Source: Bdellovibrionales bacterium (GTDB lineage Bacteria > Bdellovibrionota > FAC87 > UBA2466 > JACKAF01). From it: a stretch of DNA of 38,215 nucleotides. The stretch spans positions 1 to 38,215 of the forward strand of contig JAGQZV010000010.1 of NCBI GenBank assembly GCA_020435295.1, written 5' to 3'. How positions within the stretch are numbered: position 1 is the stretch's first letter; the number at the start of each line of letters is the position of its first letter. The position numbers and the translations under genes are program-made. Shown here one piece after another: positions 1-32,416 of this stretch. The notes below the pieces were generated by a model that worked only from the letters and a program-made list of their open reading frames with translations, was not told the origin of the DNA and did no database searches.

Positions 1-783
1 AAAGAAAAGTTAACCCTCAAGGACCTTATTGCGCGTCAGTCAATTACCCCCGCCGCTGCAAGGTTCATTGATGTTTGTATATATCTTAAAAAGAACATCA
101 TGATTTCAGGCGGTACTGGTTGCGGTAAAACGACCATTTTGAATATTCTAGGCGGGAGAGTTCCGGCCGGGGAACGTATGGTTATCCTGGAAGACTCCTC
201 GGAATTGAAGATCGACAACGACCATGTAGTTTATTTCGAAGCGCGGCCTGCGGATGAATACGGCAAAGGACTGGTCACGCTTCGGGATTTGGTAAAATCA
301 TCCTTGCGTCTACGGCCAGACCGCGTAGTTGTCGGAGAGGTGCGTGGGGGCGAGGCTCTGGATCTTCTGAACTCCATGAATACCGGACACTCGGGTTCCA
401 TGGGGACCGTCCATTCCAACAGCCCGAAGGAGTGCCTCACGCGCTTGGAGACGTTGGCGTTGATGAATGACGTGGAAGTGCCTGTCACCGCCATCCGCGC
501 CCAAGTTGCTAGCGCCATCAACATCGTTATTCAGCTGTCTCGGCTTTCTGATGGGTCCCGCAAAACCACTCACATTACGGAGTGTACGGGAATGGACTTA
601 AACGGAAATTACACGGTGAACCCGATCTTTCTTTTTACACAGACCGGCAGGAAAGAAGACGGTACAGTTCTTGGTTCTCTAGAGCCGACAGGAAATCTTC
701 CAACATTCATGCGGGAGATAGAGGTCAATCAACTTCCATTCAGCCGAGAGATCTTGCTTCGTGGCAAGAAATCGGCTGCCTAG
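1..783 (+). CDS. cpaF: CpaF/TadA-type secretion ATPase, 3' part (truncated by window start)
   Basis: The frame is open from base 1, so the gene starts outside the window; 260 C-terminal residues are visible. A Walker A motif GGTGCGKT lies at visible residues 37-44, followed by the Asp and His box regions and a Walker B-like stretch (VVVGEVRGGEALDLLNSM) and GTVHSNSP, which are typical of the CpaF/VirB11/PilB secretion ATPase superfamily. CpaF proteins are cytoplasmic hexamers that power Tad (Flp) pilus assembly or related type II/IV secretion. No other tad genes are in the window, so the exact machine is unknown. The stop codon TAG (781-783) overlaps the stop of the convergent plsB gene in a shared CTAG. 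Family call is firm; the CpaF versus generic secretion-ATPase choice is slightly less so. Confidence 0.92.
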   Translation, partial: KEKLTLKDLIARQSITPAAARFIDVCIYLKKNIMISGGTGCGKTTILNILGGRVPAGERMVILEDSSELKIDNDHVVYFEARPADEYGKGLVTLRDLVKSSLRLRPDRVVVGEVRGGEALDLLNSMNTGHSGSMGTVHSNSPKECLTRLETLALMNDVEVPVTAIRAQVASAINIVIQLSRLSDGSRKTTHITECTGMDLNGNYTVNPIFLFTQTGRKEDGTVLGSLEPTGNLPTFMREIEVNQLPFSREILLRGKKSAA

Positions 784-3371
784 GGCGACAGCTCGTGGCC
801 ACTAGGCCCATCGGTATGTCCGATTTCACCGAAATCAAACACGCGCTGCGGTTCCGAATCGATCAGATCTAGATACCCTGAAAGGGTATCGCGAAGCGAC
901 GCAATATTCTCGTCATACGCTCCGATGCTAAACTTCGTTCGAACGTCCGTTTTTTCCGCGTGTATGAATCCATAGTTTTCCAACATTTGAATTGCAGTCG
1001 AGAAATTTTGAATGGAAATCGATTCCGCAAACCGCAGTTCGCGACGCTCTCTCAATGAGATGGCATAACGGGTAATGCTCTGGATGAGGGCCTTCTTCTC
1101 AAAAGTGCCCGATCCGATTTCTTTTATGGCATCCAAAGCAACAAGATAACTTTCTAGTAAATATCCCGGGCTAGCAGTGTAAACCGTCATGTCCTGAAGT
1201 TTTTCGAACGTGGAAGCGATTGCAGAAAACCTGGTCCCATTTCCCTCGTTTTTGGGTAGAAAATATTCGAGCAAGTGAGCGATCTCCTCTCGAAACTCCA
1301 GAGTTGGATTGAAAAAGAAATCAAATTTTAGGAGGTTTCGGAGCTCAACGGCATAGTCCAGGAGTTGTTCCTCGTTGTATTCCTTGTGCCGGGACGCCAT
1401 CTTCATCGCGGCTAACAATGCGATACCAGGTAGGACAAGAGCGTGTATAGCGTTGTTCTTGTAATAGTTAAGTAGCGTTCTCTTTGGCTCTTCGCAGAAA
1501 TAGAGACGCGGTACTGTATCTTCTGCGCTCCCGATCACACCCCGGCGTTTTTGGGTTCGAACGATTTGTTCGATTGCCCGCTTTACTTCCGAGTCTCTGG
1601 CAACTGTCATGGGGATAGTAGCCCAGAGAAGGTAGCTAGATACCATCGAGGAGAGCCGCAGGATATCTTCCAGAGAAAGAGTGGAAACTCCGTGATTTAG
1701 CAAGATTGTAGAAACGATCGCCTTTGGGGTAATTGGGGTTACGTCGCAGATTGACTTAGAAACGCGGAAAGCAGTTTTTTGCAGCATTAACGTCTGGGTT
1801 TCGCCCCGTTCCGTGGAGAGATCGCTAATTTCCTTCACTGAGAGAAAGGGAGCGAAACGTAAATAGACCCGCCCCATCTTTCGTTTGACCACCCTACGAG
1901 ATTTAAAGAGAGCAGCCGTCGACTCCTCCGTTTTTTTCTTTCCACCCAGCTCCTGGGAGTACGTTCCTTCCTCAGGGACTTCATCGTAGGTAATTGAAAC
2001 GGGAATCAACGCGATGTCTTCAACAATGTGATTCTGGAAGCGCTCCAGGACTGTCTTGAGTATTCCAAACGCGGGAGGGAGCATTTTCCCCGATCGGCTA
2101 CGTGTTCCCTCGATGAAAAACTTGAAGGGGGTTCGGTTCTTAAGAATGTATTCAATGTATTTTTTTAGGCACAGTCCGTACAGCTCATCTCCTCGAAAGG
2201 ATCGGCGGATGAAAAACGCGCCGGCGGACCGTAGGATGGTGCCCACCGGCCAGAACGATAGGTTTACCCCCGCTGCGATGTGCGGGGTAACGATATCGTT
2301 GTCAAACAACACATATGGCATCACAAGGTAATCAAAGTGGCTACGGTGGCAGGGTATAAAAACCACCGCGCGCTTGCGCATTACTTCCCGTACTACTTCT
2401 ATCTCTTCGGCTGAGTAGATGACCCCATCAAACACCTTAGTAAATAGCCACCGCAAAAAAACATACAAGACTTCGACGGTGCGTACTTTGTAGTTTGCGA
2501 CGATTTCCGTAAGATCTTTGTACGCTCGCTGCATTACTTTTTTTGGATCGATGCCCTCGACTTTAGAGAGCCGGTCAATGGTTGCCTTTATTTCGGGGTC
2601 GCGCAGAATTGACTCCTTGACCAGGTTGGGCGAGTCGTAACGAGGGCCTAGAATTATTCGCATCTCTTGTTGCGTCAAAACGAGGATTTTTCTGCGTGTG
2701 GCCTTCGCAACGCGAATGGCTTCCGATGCTTCAAGCATCTCGGTTGTATCAGTAGCCGAAGAGTGCATGTCGAGTGGATCCAGGGCGCGAACGGTGGAGT
2801 CGCGCCGCTGGCGAAGTAGGTAGTAGGTTTTGCCTAGGAGATTTGGTCTGGAGCTGAGGCCCAAAAGGTATTCGAAGGGCCTTCGCTTTGCGCCACGCAC
2901 GTACTTTCGCCAAAGTATAAGTACTGGCACCAGATGGAAGCTTGTCAACGTACCTGTTGGCGCCAACTCTTTGTAAATGCCGGCAAGCACATTCTCCGAT
3001 GGCGTCGGATCAAACGGGCGCTTGGGTTCTCGGGAGGGGCAAAATAGTAGGCGCGGTCCCGTTTCCGAAGAGAGGAACAAATCGGAATACTTCTTGTGCC
3101 GGAAAAGAATCTGAAGAAAGTAGAGCGGCTTGGAAAATAGCAGTATCCTCTTGCGGTTCGCAACCAGTACCGCTCCCAAATTGTGCTGCCGGCTCCAGCT
3201 GGAGAGAATAAGCCATTCCACAATACCGCCGTGAGTGAGGCAAAAAGTTAGGCGGCCGCTTGTAGCCATGTGCTTGAGCGCATCAGCGGGCAAGTCAAAA
3301 TCGAATCGGACAAATACACGCTCCGCGACCCATTGCCAGGCCCGGTCTATCCACTGGTAAATCGTATTCAA
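780..3371 (-). CDS. plsB: glycerol-3-phosphate 1-O-acyltransferase PlsB
   Basis: 863 residues, close to the roughly 800 of enterobacterial PlsB. It transfers an acyl group to sn-glycerol-3-phosphate at the inner membrane, the first step of phospholipid synthesis. All four acyltransferase blocks are visible: HRSHFD (342-347, catalytic His/Asp), GAFFIRR (384-390), FIEGTRSRSGK (419-429) and ALIPVSITYDE (454-464). The long N- and C-terminal extensions are as in PlsB rather than the short PlsC/PlsY enzymes. The first in-frame start is a TTG at 3371 with no clear Shine-Dalgarno; an in-frame TAG five codons upstream blocks extension, so the true start is uncertain (the next ATG is residue 35). A C8/G8 tract sits 18 bases upstream. 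The gene converges on cpaF. Confidence 0.93.
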   Translation of the reverse strand: MNTIYQWIDRAWQWVAERVFVRFDFDLPADALKHMATSGRLTFCLTHGGIVEWLILSSWSRQHNLGAVLVANRKRILLFSKPLYFLQILFRHKKYSDLFLSSETGPRLLFCPSREPKRPFDPTPSENVLAGIYKELAPTGTLTSFHLVPVLILWRKYVRGAKRRPFEYLLGLSSRPNLLGKTYYLLRQRRDSTVRALDPLDMHSSATDTTEMLEASEAIRVAKATRRKILVLTQQEMRIILGPRYDSPNLVKESILRDPEIKATIDRLSKVEGIDPKKVMQRAYKDLTEIVANYKVRTVEVLYVFLRWLFTKVFDGVIYSAEEIEVVREVMRKRAVVFIPCHRSHFDYLVMPYVLFDNDIVTPHIAAGVNLSFWPVGTILRSAGAFFIRRSFRGDELYGLCLKKYIEYILKNRTPFKFFIEGTRSRSGKMLPPAFGILKTVLERFQNHIVEDIALIPVSITYDEVPEEGTYSQELGGKKKTEESTAALFKSRRVVKRKMGRVYLRFAPFLSVKEISDLSTERGETQTLMLQKTAFRVSKSICDVTPITPKAIVSTILLNHGVSTLSLEDILRLSSMVSSYLLWATIPMTVARDSEVKRAIEQIVRTQKRRGVIGSAEDTVPRLYFCEEPKRTLLNYYKNNAIHALVLPGIALLAAMKMASRHKEYNEEQLLDYAVELRNLLKFDFFFNPTLEFREEIAHLLEYFLPKNEGNGTRFSAIASTFEKLQDMTVYTASPGYLLESYLVALDAIKEIGSGTFEKKALIQSITRYAISLRERRELRFAESISIQNFSTAIQMLENYGFIHAEKTDVRTKFSIGAYDENIASLRDTLSGYLDLIDSEPQRVFDFGEIGHTDGPSGHELSP

Positions 3372-3898: not shown

Positions 3899-5389
3899 CT
3901 ATTGTTTGGTTAGCGACTCGTGCAGCGATATCTTTGGGAAGCGGTTTAGATGGATGGATTCAAGAAAATCGAGCATCGCCCCTGGCGTGATGACGTCGTT
4001 GAGTATCTTGCGTTTCTGGCTGAGTGCCCACCGGCGACGCTCCGACGTCAGATTTGTGTCCACCAAATACCAGCGATCGGTCACCGCCCAGAAAGTGAGG
4101 GTAATATTTTTTAGGCGATCCCGACCCAGCAGCACGTCGCCGGAATACGTGGCTACAACCCGGTATTTTCCCTGTTTGTTCTTCTCCAGTTTTACCTCAG
4201 GGGTGCCTGCGAGCGTAATGTCGGGGAAATCAGCGTCCAGAAGGTTGGTGATACCTTCACTGAAGTGGAAGGACAGGCGATCAAACATGATCTTCAGTTT
4301 TTCCTCTGTCGACTTCAGGTAATAGCCAAATGGGTGTGCGCGGTTTGGAAACTCTCGAGCCAGTAATTGAATTCTTCCCCCTGCCTTTTCGCGCGACTCC
4401 GCGCCATTCAAGGGACCAAGCAAGAGATTGATATTGCGTACTAGGCTATCAAAGCGGGCATCATTGTCTTTGGATGTCTCATACGCGGTAAACAAAGCTG
4501 TCTCCGCTCGCTGGTAATTGGGTGGATCGTAAAGGTAGAAATCGGCTGCTTTGAGCGGTTTCTTGGCCTTCATAAGCAAGTTTCCAGCGTCTACGTAACG
4601 GCGGTTGCGGCGATAGTAGTCGATGGCTGCCTCCAATGCCTCGGTGCCGGCTGCGTCAGAGGAATCTTCTTCAACAATTTTTTCGAGGCGAGGCAATGTA
4701 TCACTCGGTTTGATAATGAGTTCACTTAAGGCTTGGCGTACCTGCTGGGCGCGGGTGAGTCGCACGCGCAGGCCTTGTTTGGTGCTCTTTACGATACTCT
4801 GTTCGACGGAAGAAAATTTCACCTGCCAGTAGAAAATGCCAAAGCCAAGTGACGCGCAAAACGCGACAAAAAGCAGGGTCAGCCCCAGGCGAGTGGTCAT
4901 GAATGCCGGCCGGGAAAAGACCGCCTCTTTTCCCTTAAAGACGGTTTCTACTTTTTGCCCCGGCGCCACAAATGTAGAGGTGGAGCTTACGTCCAGGCCA
5001 GAGGGACCGGTCGCTCGAACCGGGCGGCCCGACCGGTCACTCGCTGGAGCCTCGGGTTGGTGACTTTCGTAGCCTTCGTCTTCGGGGGTGGATAGGGCAG
5101 AAACTCCACCCGGCATGGAGGGGGTGGCCGCCGGTGGTTGTGCTGCAACCTGAGCGATCGAGGGCGGAGGAGGGGCCGCGCTCCCTCCCGCGCCTCCCAG
5201 CGCTGAAGCAAAGGCGGGAATGGAGTGGATTGCGGTCCACGCAGAGAGGCCCTCGTGCCACACGAGTGCATCGTCCGGAATGGTCTGGCTTTGAATCTTT
5301 TCGATGATATCGGCTTCGCTGTACGGCCCGGTCTGATCGCCGTCGATGCCAAGGTAGTACTGTGGGGATTCTTGGGCTACTTGGCTCAT
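3899..5389 (-). CDS. GYF_2-domain membrane protein of unknown function
   Basis: 496 residues. Residues 11-63 form a GYF_2 (DUF4339) domain: a YYLGIDGDQTGPYS start, an acidic helix, and the closing DALVWHEGLSAWTAI. GYF domains bind proline-rich peptides, and a Pro/Ala/Ser-rich linker (about 65-135) follows in the same chain. A single membrane helix spans about 168-189. The 300-residue remainder, probably periplasmic, has helical, possibly repeat-like character (residues about 200-330) and a C-terminal segment rich in beta strands; I do not recognise it. An extended -10 element (TGC TATAAT) lies only nine bases before the ATG, so the mRNA may be almost leaderless. It follows the RelA/SpoT-like gene on the same strand across a 79-base gap. 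The GYF_2 call is firm, the function unknown. Confidence 0.85.
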   Translation of the reverse strand: MSQVAQESPQYYLGIDGDQTGPYSEADIIEKIQSQTIPDDALVWHEGLSAWTAIHSIPAFASALGGAGGSAAPPPPSIAQVAAQPPAATPSMPGGVSALSTPEDEGYESHQPEAPASDRSGRPVRATGPSGLDVSSTSTFVAPGQKVETVFKGKEAVFSRPAFMTTRLGLTLLFVAFCASLGFGIFYWQVKFSSVEQSIVKSTKQGLRVRLTRAQQVRQALSELIIKPSDTLPRLEKIVEEDSSDAAGTEALEAAIDYYRRNRRYVDAGNLLMKAKKPLKAADFYLYDPPNYQRAETALFTAYETSKDNDARFDSLVRNINLLLGPLNGAESREKAGGRIQLLAREFPNRAHPFGYYLKSTEEKLKIMFDRLSFHFSEGITNLLDADFPDITLAGTPEVKLEKNKQGKYRVVATYSGDVLLGRDRLKNITLTFWAVTDRWYLVDTNLTSERRRWALSQKRKILNDVITPGAMLDFLESIHLNRFPKISLHESLTKQ

Positions 5390-5468: not shown

Positions 5469-6749
5469 CTAGAGTCTGCCGCGGCCGAAGACGCGATTGC
5501 GGGCTACCTCAAGCTGCTTCTTGCGGTACTCTTCGTGGTTGCTCTTGCCGAAAATGCTGTCGGCGTAGGACTTCACGTCCATGATTTGGATTTCGTATGG
5601 AAAGAAGATGTACTCGTGGGAGGGGACGGGTTGAGGGTAAATTTCGCTAAAAATCTGCGAGCCCCCCGGTACATGCTCGAGTTGCTCTTTGGTTAAGCTG
5701 TAGGCCTGGTAAAGCGCATTGGGGACTTTAACCAGTTCGCGGCACGTGAACTGAATGGCTCGGTAGTGCTCGCTGGTTTGCGGGTTGAGCAAACTGCCGT
5801 GCTTTCGTTTGAGCGCGATCCGCCGTTCCATTCGACGAACATACTTCGAGATATCGAAACGCTCTTTGTTTGCCCCTTTCTTGATGACCGCAATGATCCG
5901 TTCCGTTTCGGTTTTTAATTTTTCAACGTCAATCAACCAGTTTCGCGATCGCGACGGGCGAACACTTGGCGTGCTGATTATGTTCTTGTTTATCATCAGG
6001 CGGACGGCCCTCATGGCGTCAAACTTTGTTTCCGTAACCAAGCGGAATCCAATCCGGTCGTAGATGACTTCTACCGTACTCTCGGCTTTGTGAAGCATCT
6101 TGATGATCTCTCGCTCCCGGTCTTTCCGATCTTTCTTCTTAAAGAAGAGTAGTTTAATGCCGCCGCCTTCTTCCTTCTTTCCCAGGTAAATGGATCCCGT
6201 GGAACTGTCGACGTAAAGGTGGTCATCCAAGCGGCCTAGGATCTGGTTCTGGGCATGGGCGAAATAGCGGAGTCTAGGATCGTGGGCAAGATGAATGAGG
6301 ACGTGCGCTACCCGTAGGATTGCGCAGGCCCATAACTGATCCGGGTTATCTTTTGACGACGCCAGCAGAAGTAGCCTTCGCACATCTTTCATCGCCTCTC
6401 GCGTACGCAGGTGCTCGGGGACTTTTGGGTACTCGGCATCCTGCAGGGTTTTCTCTATGAATTGGACGGCGTCTTCTACATATTTCCAGATAAGTTCGAT
6501 ATCTTTGGGATCGCTAGGATTGTAGCCGTACGCTTGGATGAAACTGGTCGCGCTTTCCATGGTTTTCACTTCCAAGTTTGGGACGTCTAGAATGGAGACG
6601 CCATCCAGGATGACCGGCAGCAGCTGCCACGGGAAACGATATTCTTTGGTGGTTAACGGCATGTGGCCCAGACTACACAACAGCTCTTTGAAGGGACAGT
6701 CTTCAATTCCCCAGCGGCGAAAAACTATGGCCGTCCTTTGCGTAAGCAT
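5469..6749 (-). CDS. divergent RelA/SpoT-synthetase-like protein of unknown function
   Basis: 426 residues. I see no close named homologue; it resembles an uncharacterised delta-proteobacterial family (possibly the TIGR04552 model, from memory and unchecked). The C-terminal half follows the order of motifs of the RelA/SpoT synthetase fold: a basic stretch then IIKMLHKA (about 202-222), VEVIYDRIGFRLV (226-238, like EIYDLLAIRVL), HYRAIQFT (328-335, like MYQSLHTT), PYEIQIMD (384-391, like EVQIRT) and NHEEYRKK (404-411, like AHWAYK). D231, Y329 and E386 fall at positions equivalent to the catalytic Asp, the guanine-stacking Tyr and the catalytic Glu of Rel enzymes, while the His of the YQSLH motif is Gln333. 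About 75 residues are inserted before the Tyr motif. The N-terminal 200 residues are unassigned, with no HD hydrolase motif. Function as an alarmone or other pyrophosphokinase is inference. Confidence 0.7.
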   Translation of the reverse strand: MLTQRTAIVFRRWGIEDCPFKELLCSLGHMPLTTKEYRFPWQLLPVILDGVSILDVPNLEVKTMESATSFIQAYGYNPSDPKDIELIWKYVEDAVQFIEKTLQDAEYPKVPEHLRTREAMKDVRRLLLLASSKDNPDQLWACAILRVAHVLIHLAHDPRLRYFAHAQNQILGRLDDHLYVDSSTGSIYLGKKEEGGGIKLLFFKKKDRKDREREIIKMLHKAESTVEVIYDRIGFRLVTETKFDAMRAVRLMINKNIISTPSVRPSRSRNWLIDVEKLKTETERIIAVIKKGANKERFDISKYVRRMERRIALKRKHGSLLNPQTSEHYRAIQFTCRELVKVPNALYQAYSLTKEQLEHVPGGSQIFSEIYPQPVPSHEYIFFPYEIQIMDVKSYADSIFGKSNHEEYRKKQLEVARNRVFGRGRL

Positions 6750-32053: not shown

Positions 32054-32416
32054 CTAGGCGTAGATTTTTTCGTCGCGCTCTTCCGCTTCCTTGCATTGGA
32101 TGCAGAGTGTCGCCACTGGCCGGGCTTCTAGGCGCTTAATTTCTATGGGCTCTTCACAGGAGTCGCAGATGCCGAACGTCCCAGACTCAATCTTGGCTAG
32201 CGCGGTTTCAATCTTTTGAAGCAAAGAACGTTCGCGGTCTCTAAGGCGAAGCGTCATGCTTTGGTTTAGTTCTGAGGATGCGAGATCGACTTCGTCTGGT
32301 AGGTCGTCCGGGCTCAGCGTCATTTCCGCATCGATCACATGTTCGGAGTGATTCAGAATACGGGATTTTTCTTCCAACAATCTTTCGCCAAACCGCTTAA
32401 GGTCCTTCTTGTTCAT
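32054..32416 (-). CDS. dksA: TraR/DksA-family zinc-finger transcription factor
   Basis: 120 residues, shorter than the 151 of Escherichia coli DksA. A coiled-coil tip motif DxxDxA is present as DEVDLA (41-46), and a C4 zinc finger has Cys84, Cys87, Cys105 and Cys108 (ICDSCEEP and LCIQCKE). Such proteins enter the RNA polymerase secondary channel and, with ppGpp, adjust rRNA and stress promoters. AGGAG stands nine bases before the ATG and can pair with an upstream CTCCTT. With a RelA/SpoT-like gene also in this window, a link to alarmone signalling is plausible but untested. Confidence 0.88.
   Translation of the reverse strand: MNKKDLKRFGERLLEEKSRILNHSEHVIDAEMTLSPDDLPDEVDLASSELNQSMTLRLRDRERSLLQKIETALAKIESGTFGICDSCEEPIEIKRLEARPVATLCIQCKEAEERDEKIYA

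Follow-up and report, generated by a model that had tools for sequence, protein, structure and literature searches.

TIGR04552-family proteins are remote relatives of the RelA/SpoT synthetases that stand beside canonical Rel in Bdellovibrionota

Is a minus-strand gene of a Bdellovibrionales bacterium, in which motifs of the (p)ppGpp synthetases can be picked out by eye, a true member of the RelA/SpoT group, and if so what kind of reaction might its product perform? The gene lies in contig JAGQZV010000010.1, of which we analyzed the stretch of 38,215 nucleotides that we call the window. The window ORF list gives it 426 codons from an ATG at 6749 (5469–6749). The true start is probably at 6662, because relatives begin at the equivalent of Met30, which leaves a protein of 397 amino acids; the relatives open with MDATQNFxFPW, compared with MPLTTKEYRFPW in the window protein. 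We number residues from Met30, and adding 29 gives the numbering of the first-pass annotation (D202 = D231, Y300 = Y329, E357 = E386). The features discussed below are summarized in Table 1.

Table 1. Positions in the window of the TIGR04552-family gene, its putative functional elements and its downstream neighbors
Feature	Position	Strand	Basis
TIGR04552-family RelA/SpoT-like protein, 397 aa (probable start)	5469..6662	-	NCBIfam match; start from relatives; annotated ORF runs to ATG 6749, 426 aa
N-terminal helical domain, residues 1-167 from Met30	6162..6662	-	Model of the domain alone, fold search, conservation
RelA/SpoT synthetase-like domain, residues 168-397	5472..6161	-	Pfam, AF2 model, Foldseek, Rel-derived HMM
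Putative donor (ATP triphosphate) basic motif and KM-helix, residues 177-192: K177, K180, K188, K192	6087..6134	-	Mapped to FaRel2 K66/S70/K74 (PMC11782079)
YDRIGFR: putative Mg-binding Asp D202 (= D231), Gly at D+3, Arg at D+5	6042..6062	-	FaRel2 D90/G93/R95 (PMC11782079), Rel-derived HMM
Insert 1, residues 242-292, predicted acceptor (G-loop) region between conserved RSRN and NPxxS	5787..5939	-	Alignment, model, spacing
NPQTSEHYRAIQFTCR: putative acceptor-stacking Tyr Y300 (= Y329); Gln at the usual His; invariant N293, F305, R308	5739..5786	-	Alignment
Insert 2, residues 316-348, between Tyr strand and Glu strand	5619..5717	-	Alignment, model, spacing
PYEIQIMD: putative catalytic Glu E357 (= E386); Q359, D362 invariant	5577..5600	-	FaRel2 E145/Q147 (PMC11782079), Rel-derived HMM
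C-terminal helix GxxxHxxYxxxQ...R, counterpart of Rel GIAAHWxYK	5493..5549	-	Alignment, Rel-derived HMM
Downstream GYF_2-domain gene, 79 bp after the family gene	3899..5389	-	Adjacency conserved in 14 loci of the set
Next downstream gene, glycerol-3-phosphate acyltransferase-like (GPAT-like)	780..3371	-	Kept in 13 loci

The window protein matches NCBIfam TIGR04562 (E = 3.6e-93, 312.6 bits against a cut-off of 140) and TIGR04552 (E = 2.8e-92, 309.8 bits against a cut-off of 125) over nearly its whole length. Both models are named just 'TIGR04552 family protein', and in the library used they carry neither an assigned function nor a RelA/SpoT annotation. The Pfam RelA_SpoT model (PF04607) gives the window protein alone 10.2 bits and E = 0.93, below the gathering cut-off of 27 bits, and the link to RelA/SpoT therefore rests on the family. 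An alignment of 68 members was the basis of the Pfam counts, the conservation counts and the AlphaFold2 input. RelA_SpoT matches 59 of these members (E ≤ 0.1, best 1.1e-8), and any other family matches at most two. Whole-genome searches with PF04607 recover the TIGR04552 genes of two relatives at the same coordinates, one (G035) at 27.1 bits, over the curated cut-off, and the other in G034. An HMM made from canonical Rel domains matched members in two colinear pieces, KM-helix/Asp and Glu/C-helix, with E-values down to 5.6e-6 in the set of 68; the best sequence of the shuffled control had E = 0.15. The HMM-HMM comparison proposed in the first-pass annotation gave a weak result. Hhalign against Bdellovibrionota Rel, either full-length or domain, aligned the Asp motif but nothing else; a shallow set of Rel sequences and an alignment interrupted by the inserts are the probable causes. 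A search of the PDB by sequence gave no useful match for either the single sequence or the profile.

The AlphaFold2 model of the window protein is confident (pLDDT 91.5, pTM 0.85), and the predicted fold is that of the synthetases. On comparing the model with the PDB using Foldseek, ranks 1 to 44 are all RelA/SpoT-type synthetases (RelP, RelQ, Rel, RelA, SpoT, CapRel and related proteins), with the first unrelated structure at rank 45. The top match is RelP with a probability of 1.00. The best E-value is 1.7e-3 and the rmsd is high at about 11 Å, as expected if inserts break the alignment, and the list of matches is uniform. An unrelated fold would have spoken against the original assignment; none appears before rank 45. 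The weak single-sequence scores might suggest that the order of the motifs is a chance resemblance in a protein unrelated to RelA/SpoT, but the family-level HMM matches, the shuffled control and the fold search make this exceedingly improbable. All the motifs quoted at first pass are found in the order given there, and the synthetase-like interpretation placed on them is supported both by family-level sequence homology and by the fold search. The TIGR04552 family is thus a real, if remote, relative of the (p)ppGpp-making RelA/SpoT synthetases.

This link between TIGR04552 and the alarmone synthetases is made here. Within the open-access literature searched, which is a part of the whole, we found no paper tying the two together. 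The identifier TIGR04552 occurs there in a single paper (PMC9888234), where it carries no functional link, and TIGR04562 in none. Bdellovibrio is not mentioned in the main text of Atkinson 2011 (PMC3153485).

No Pfam match to an HD, TGS or ACT domain was found in the window protein, in agreement with the first-pass annotation. Residues 1–167 modelled alone form a helical domain (pLDDT 84.7) in which S23, Y45, G46, P82, H124 and Q140 are invariant. The conserved H120, H124 and D128 were suggestive of an HD hydrolase, but a search of the PDB with this domain alone gave no HD match, and nothing better than E = 1.4. The combination of HD hydrolase with TGS/ACT that defines the long RSH proteins is therefore not seen, either by Pfam or as an HD-like fold in the N-terminal domain.

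The active site can be read by comparison with FaRel2. In that enzyme the ATP donor is contacted by R64, K66, S70, K74 and R77 (triphosphate), D90 (Mg), and G93, R95, E145 and Q147 (adenosine), and Y128 is the acceptor-base residue (PMC11782079). We mapped these onto the family by motif and spacing, supported by the Rel-derived HMM. By spacing the FaRel2 sites would fall on K180 (209 in the first-pass numbering), S/R184 (213), K188 (217), D202 (231), G205 (234), R207 (236), E357 (386), Q359 (388) and Y300 (329). K180, K188, D202, G205, E357 and Q359 are invariant in 68 of 68 members, drawn from several phyla. Six of the nine mapped positions are thus found within the 23 columns, out of 397, that do not vary (P = 1.4e-6). 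The remaining three positions have Tyr in 63 members and Phe in five, Arg in 64 and Lys in four, and Ser in 56 and Arg in 12. The last of these is donor-site position 184, which is Arg in every one of the 12 aligned sequences from the window's own order and Ser in the 56 others. The suggestion that D231, Y329 and E386 occupy key catalytic positions is well borne out by the alignment, in which they would correspond to the Mg-binding Asp (68/68), the acceptor-stacking Tyr (Y in 63, F in five) and the catalytic Glu (68/68) of Rel and SAS proteins. In the 68-member alignment the putative Mg-site Asp, catalytic Glu, donor Lys and acceptor Tyr occur in order.

The protein might instead have lost catalysis and use the old active site to bind nucleotides or (p)ppGpp, as a sensor or scaffold. 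Replacement of the donor Ser by Arg in the window's order, of the motif His by Gln, and of Tyr by Phe in five members would all be consistent with this. Pseudoenzymes usually lose their metal ligands, however. Here these are kept, and across the 68 sequences, which come from several phyla, the D, E, Q, G and donor lysines do not vary. We therefore regard a dead sensor as unlikely. Since the donor-site residues are invariant across phyla, the inactive sensor entertained at first pass appears less likely than an active enzyme.

The acceptor side has changed more. The motif His is indeed Gln in the window protein, as first noted, and the family has Q in 59 members, H in seven and K in two. An insert of about 75 residues had also been proposed. 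The extra residues are present, but as two segments of about 50 and about 44 residues rather than one. The median spacing from D to Y is 95 residues in the family compared with 44 in Rel, and that from Y to E is 60 residues compared with 15–16. The first segment is in the acceptor loop, where it is flanked by the conserved RSRN and NPxxS, and the second separates the Tyr and Glu strands. The G-loop of the Rel/SAS proteins, PGRFKDYIAxPKxNxYQSLH in Rel, is not preserved at the site of the first segment. Given the invariant donor residues, and the extra residues in the acceptor loop and between the Tyr and Glu strands, it appears that the ATP-side (donor) half of the active site is kept and the acceptor half is rebuilt. 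From the model and the alignment, the two added segments would rebuild the acceptor pocket, and the acceptor is therefore probably handled otherwise than in Rel. This bears on a second alternative, an ordinary (p)ppGpp synthetase that supports Rel under certain stresses, with GDP or GTP still as the acceptor and with inserts that are no more than regulatory additions. It would have the same fold and donor site, the acceptor-stacking Tyr is found in 63 of 68 members, and in the RSH superfamily small alarmone synthetases commonly occur alongside Rel (PMC3153485). Yet the acceptor-loop residues of Rel are lost, with some 50 residues placed inside the loop, and His has become Gln, so that we find this alternative possible but doubtful.

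The family is close to universal in its phylum. Of the 241 Bdellovibrionota genomes that are at least 90% complete, 225 carry TIGR04552, almost always in single copy. The 16 genomes that lack it are enriched in small ones, with 11 of 16 at ≤2.2 Mb compared with 8 of 225 (Fisher P = 9e-11, calculated over related genomes that are not independent), and it is missing mainly from genomes of 1.2–2.2 Mb. A scan of 84,980 species gave 349 TIGR04552 loci. Most of the 80 loci that were kept are from Bdellovibrionota, and some belong to records titled Myxococcales, Eremiobacterota and Sericytochromatia/Cyanobacteria; the phylum group labels on the tree are old submitter titles. TIGR04552 is absent from 14 well-known control genomes.

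The lack of a PF04607 match in the window's own genome suggested that TIGR04552 might replace Rel. This is ruled out by a remnant of the canonical Rel gene, the last 259 codons of which are found at the start of contig C8 (1–780, 57% identity), cut by the contig end. A PF04607 match is present in all relatives that carry TIGR04552, and in 8 of 8 genomes checked elsewhere, one of which (G255) has only a divergent one. Because Rel or a PF04607 match coexists with it in these genomes, TIGR04552 is a second RelA/SpoT-like protein beside canonical Rel, and not a replacement. As a separate observation, genome G032 encodes a second RelA_SpoT protein of 453 amino acids (L121:849–2210, minus strand; E = 2.4e-7) with a signal-peptide-like N terminus. 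This is possibly an alarmone synthetase that is exported, of the kind described in PMC12691689.

In the window's order the family gene is followed by the GYF_2-domain gene on the same strand, with which it is likely co-transcribed, and then by the GPAT-like gene. Many other Bdellovibrionota have it next to a divergently oriented pgpA-recA-recX block. Oligoflexia-type members (L063:9217–10485 and relatives) have a different neighbor in about 20 loci, a gene of about 400 amino acids with a weakly FAD-enzyme-like N terminus, followed by one for an Fe-S protein. In several loci it starts within the last TIGR04552 codons, and it is a possible functional partner. The DksA-type gene remarked on at first pass is present in the window (32054–32416), but lies 25 kb from the family gene and is not adjacent, and was set aside.

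Among recurrent neighbors, no recurrent small or antitoxin-like partner gene was seen (ORFs of at least 70 amino acids), and a PADLOC defense search gave no match. A plasmid search gave no match either. A phage origin was considered and rejected, since an IMG/VR scan was negative and the sole INPHARED match looks bacterial by its flanks. That record ('Microcystis phage MaAM05', MW495066.1, locus L119, 123414–124631) has the TIGR04552 gene flanked by secDF, glyS, gatD, mtgA and acpS, and looks like a mislabelled bacterial contig. These results are relevant to the idea that the protein is a toxic SAS of a toxin-antitoxin, defense or secreted system, for which the ToxSASs, of the same fold and with altered acceptors (tRNA, ADP/ATP), provide precedent (PMC11782079, PMC11559606). 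Such systems have an adjacent or fused antitoxin and a sporadic, mobile distribution, and we found neither. The gene is a near-universal single-copy core gene with stable neighbors (recX-recA-pgpA, GYF, GPAT). The stable housekeeping context, together with the lack of a partner, of a PADLOC match and of plasmid or viral relatives in these searches, argues against a toxin or defense role, which we judge to be very improbable.

On the basis of homology, fold, residue conservation, distribution and gene context, we think it rather probable that the protein is an active, housekeeping, ATP-dependent pyrophosphokinase of RelA/SpoT fold with a non-standard or extended acceptor site. The catalysis, ATP donor, altered acceptor and regulation in this reading would be as follows. 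ATP would occupy the conserved donor site, with basic K/R residues and the KM helix holding the triphosphate. D231 and E386 (D202 and E357) would hold Mg, and G234, R236, E386 and Q388 (G205, R207, E357 and Q359) the adenosine. The beta,gamma-pyrophosphate would then be transferred to the 3'-OH of the ribose in an acceptor that stacks on Y329 (Y300). This acceptor might be a nucleotide, guanine or adenine, bound in another pose than in Rel, or something larger, for example the end of an RNA. A role as regulator or ligand sensor would be likely for the helical domain at the N terminus. Since more than one acceptor would fit, this pyrophosphokinase overlaps with the ordinary (p)ppGpp synthetase discussed above. 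Against it we count the change of the donor-site Ser to Arg in the window's own order and of the motif His to Gln in most members, as well as the sub-threshold Pfam score of the window protein, the Foldseek E-value of 1.7e-3 with high rmsd, and the weak profile–profile comparison. More tentatively, TIGR04552 could be a core pyrophosphokinase of Bdellovibrionota whose pyrophosphorylated product differs from (p)ppGpp and serves in normal physiology, as a signal or as a modification of RNA, and not as a toxin.

A physiological hint comes from Bdellovibrio sp. NC01 evolved on Pseudomonas prey. One of the four high-frequency mutations in line B is a one-base deletion in the TIGR04552 gene DOE51_RS08710, at a frequency >75%, and according to the authors the evolved populations survive starvation better (PMC9888234). 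This suggests that the gene is dispensable in the NC01–Pseudomonas co-culture, and the RelA/SpoT link may offer a reading of the frameshift in starvation-adapted NC01. The best-studied bacterial predators belong to the Bdellovibrionota, a group whose starvation signaling has been read from the standard Rel gene. If our reading is correct, a near-universal second protein of RelA/SpoT fold would be an overlooked signaling or RNA-modifying enzyme. It provides a functional hypothesis for a family that, across hundreds of species, bears no annotation beyond 'TIGR04552 family protein'.

How then does the protein compare with known systems? TIGR04552/TIGR04562 is its own family, matched over the full length with E about 1e-93. 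With the synthetase domain of RelP/RelQ and Rel/RelA/SpoT (PF04607) it shares the predicted fold, the donor-site Lys, Mg-site Asp, adenosine-site Gly/Arg/Glu/Gln, acceptor Tyr and C-terminal helix. It differs in having two acceptor-side inserts, no Rel-type G-loop, Gln for His and an extra N-terminal helical domain, and in scoring below the Pfam cut-off. Like the long RSH proteins (Rel, RelA, SpoT) it has an N-terminal helical domain ahead of the synthetase domain, but it is without HD hydrolase, TGS and ACT, and these genomes have a separate canonical Rel. The ToxSAS proteins (FaRel2, PhRel, CapRel, Tas1/Apk) have the same fold and donor site and set a precedent for altered acceptors, whereas TIGR04552, with no antitoxin or immunity partner seen, is a core, stably kept chromosomal gene.
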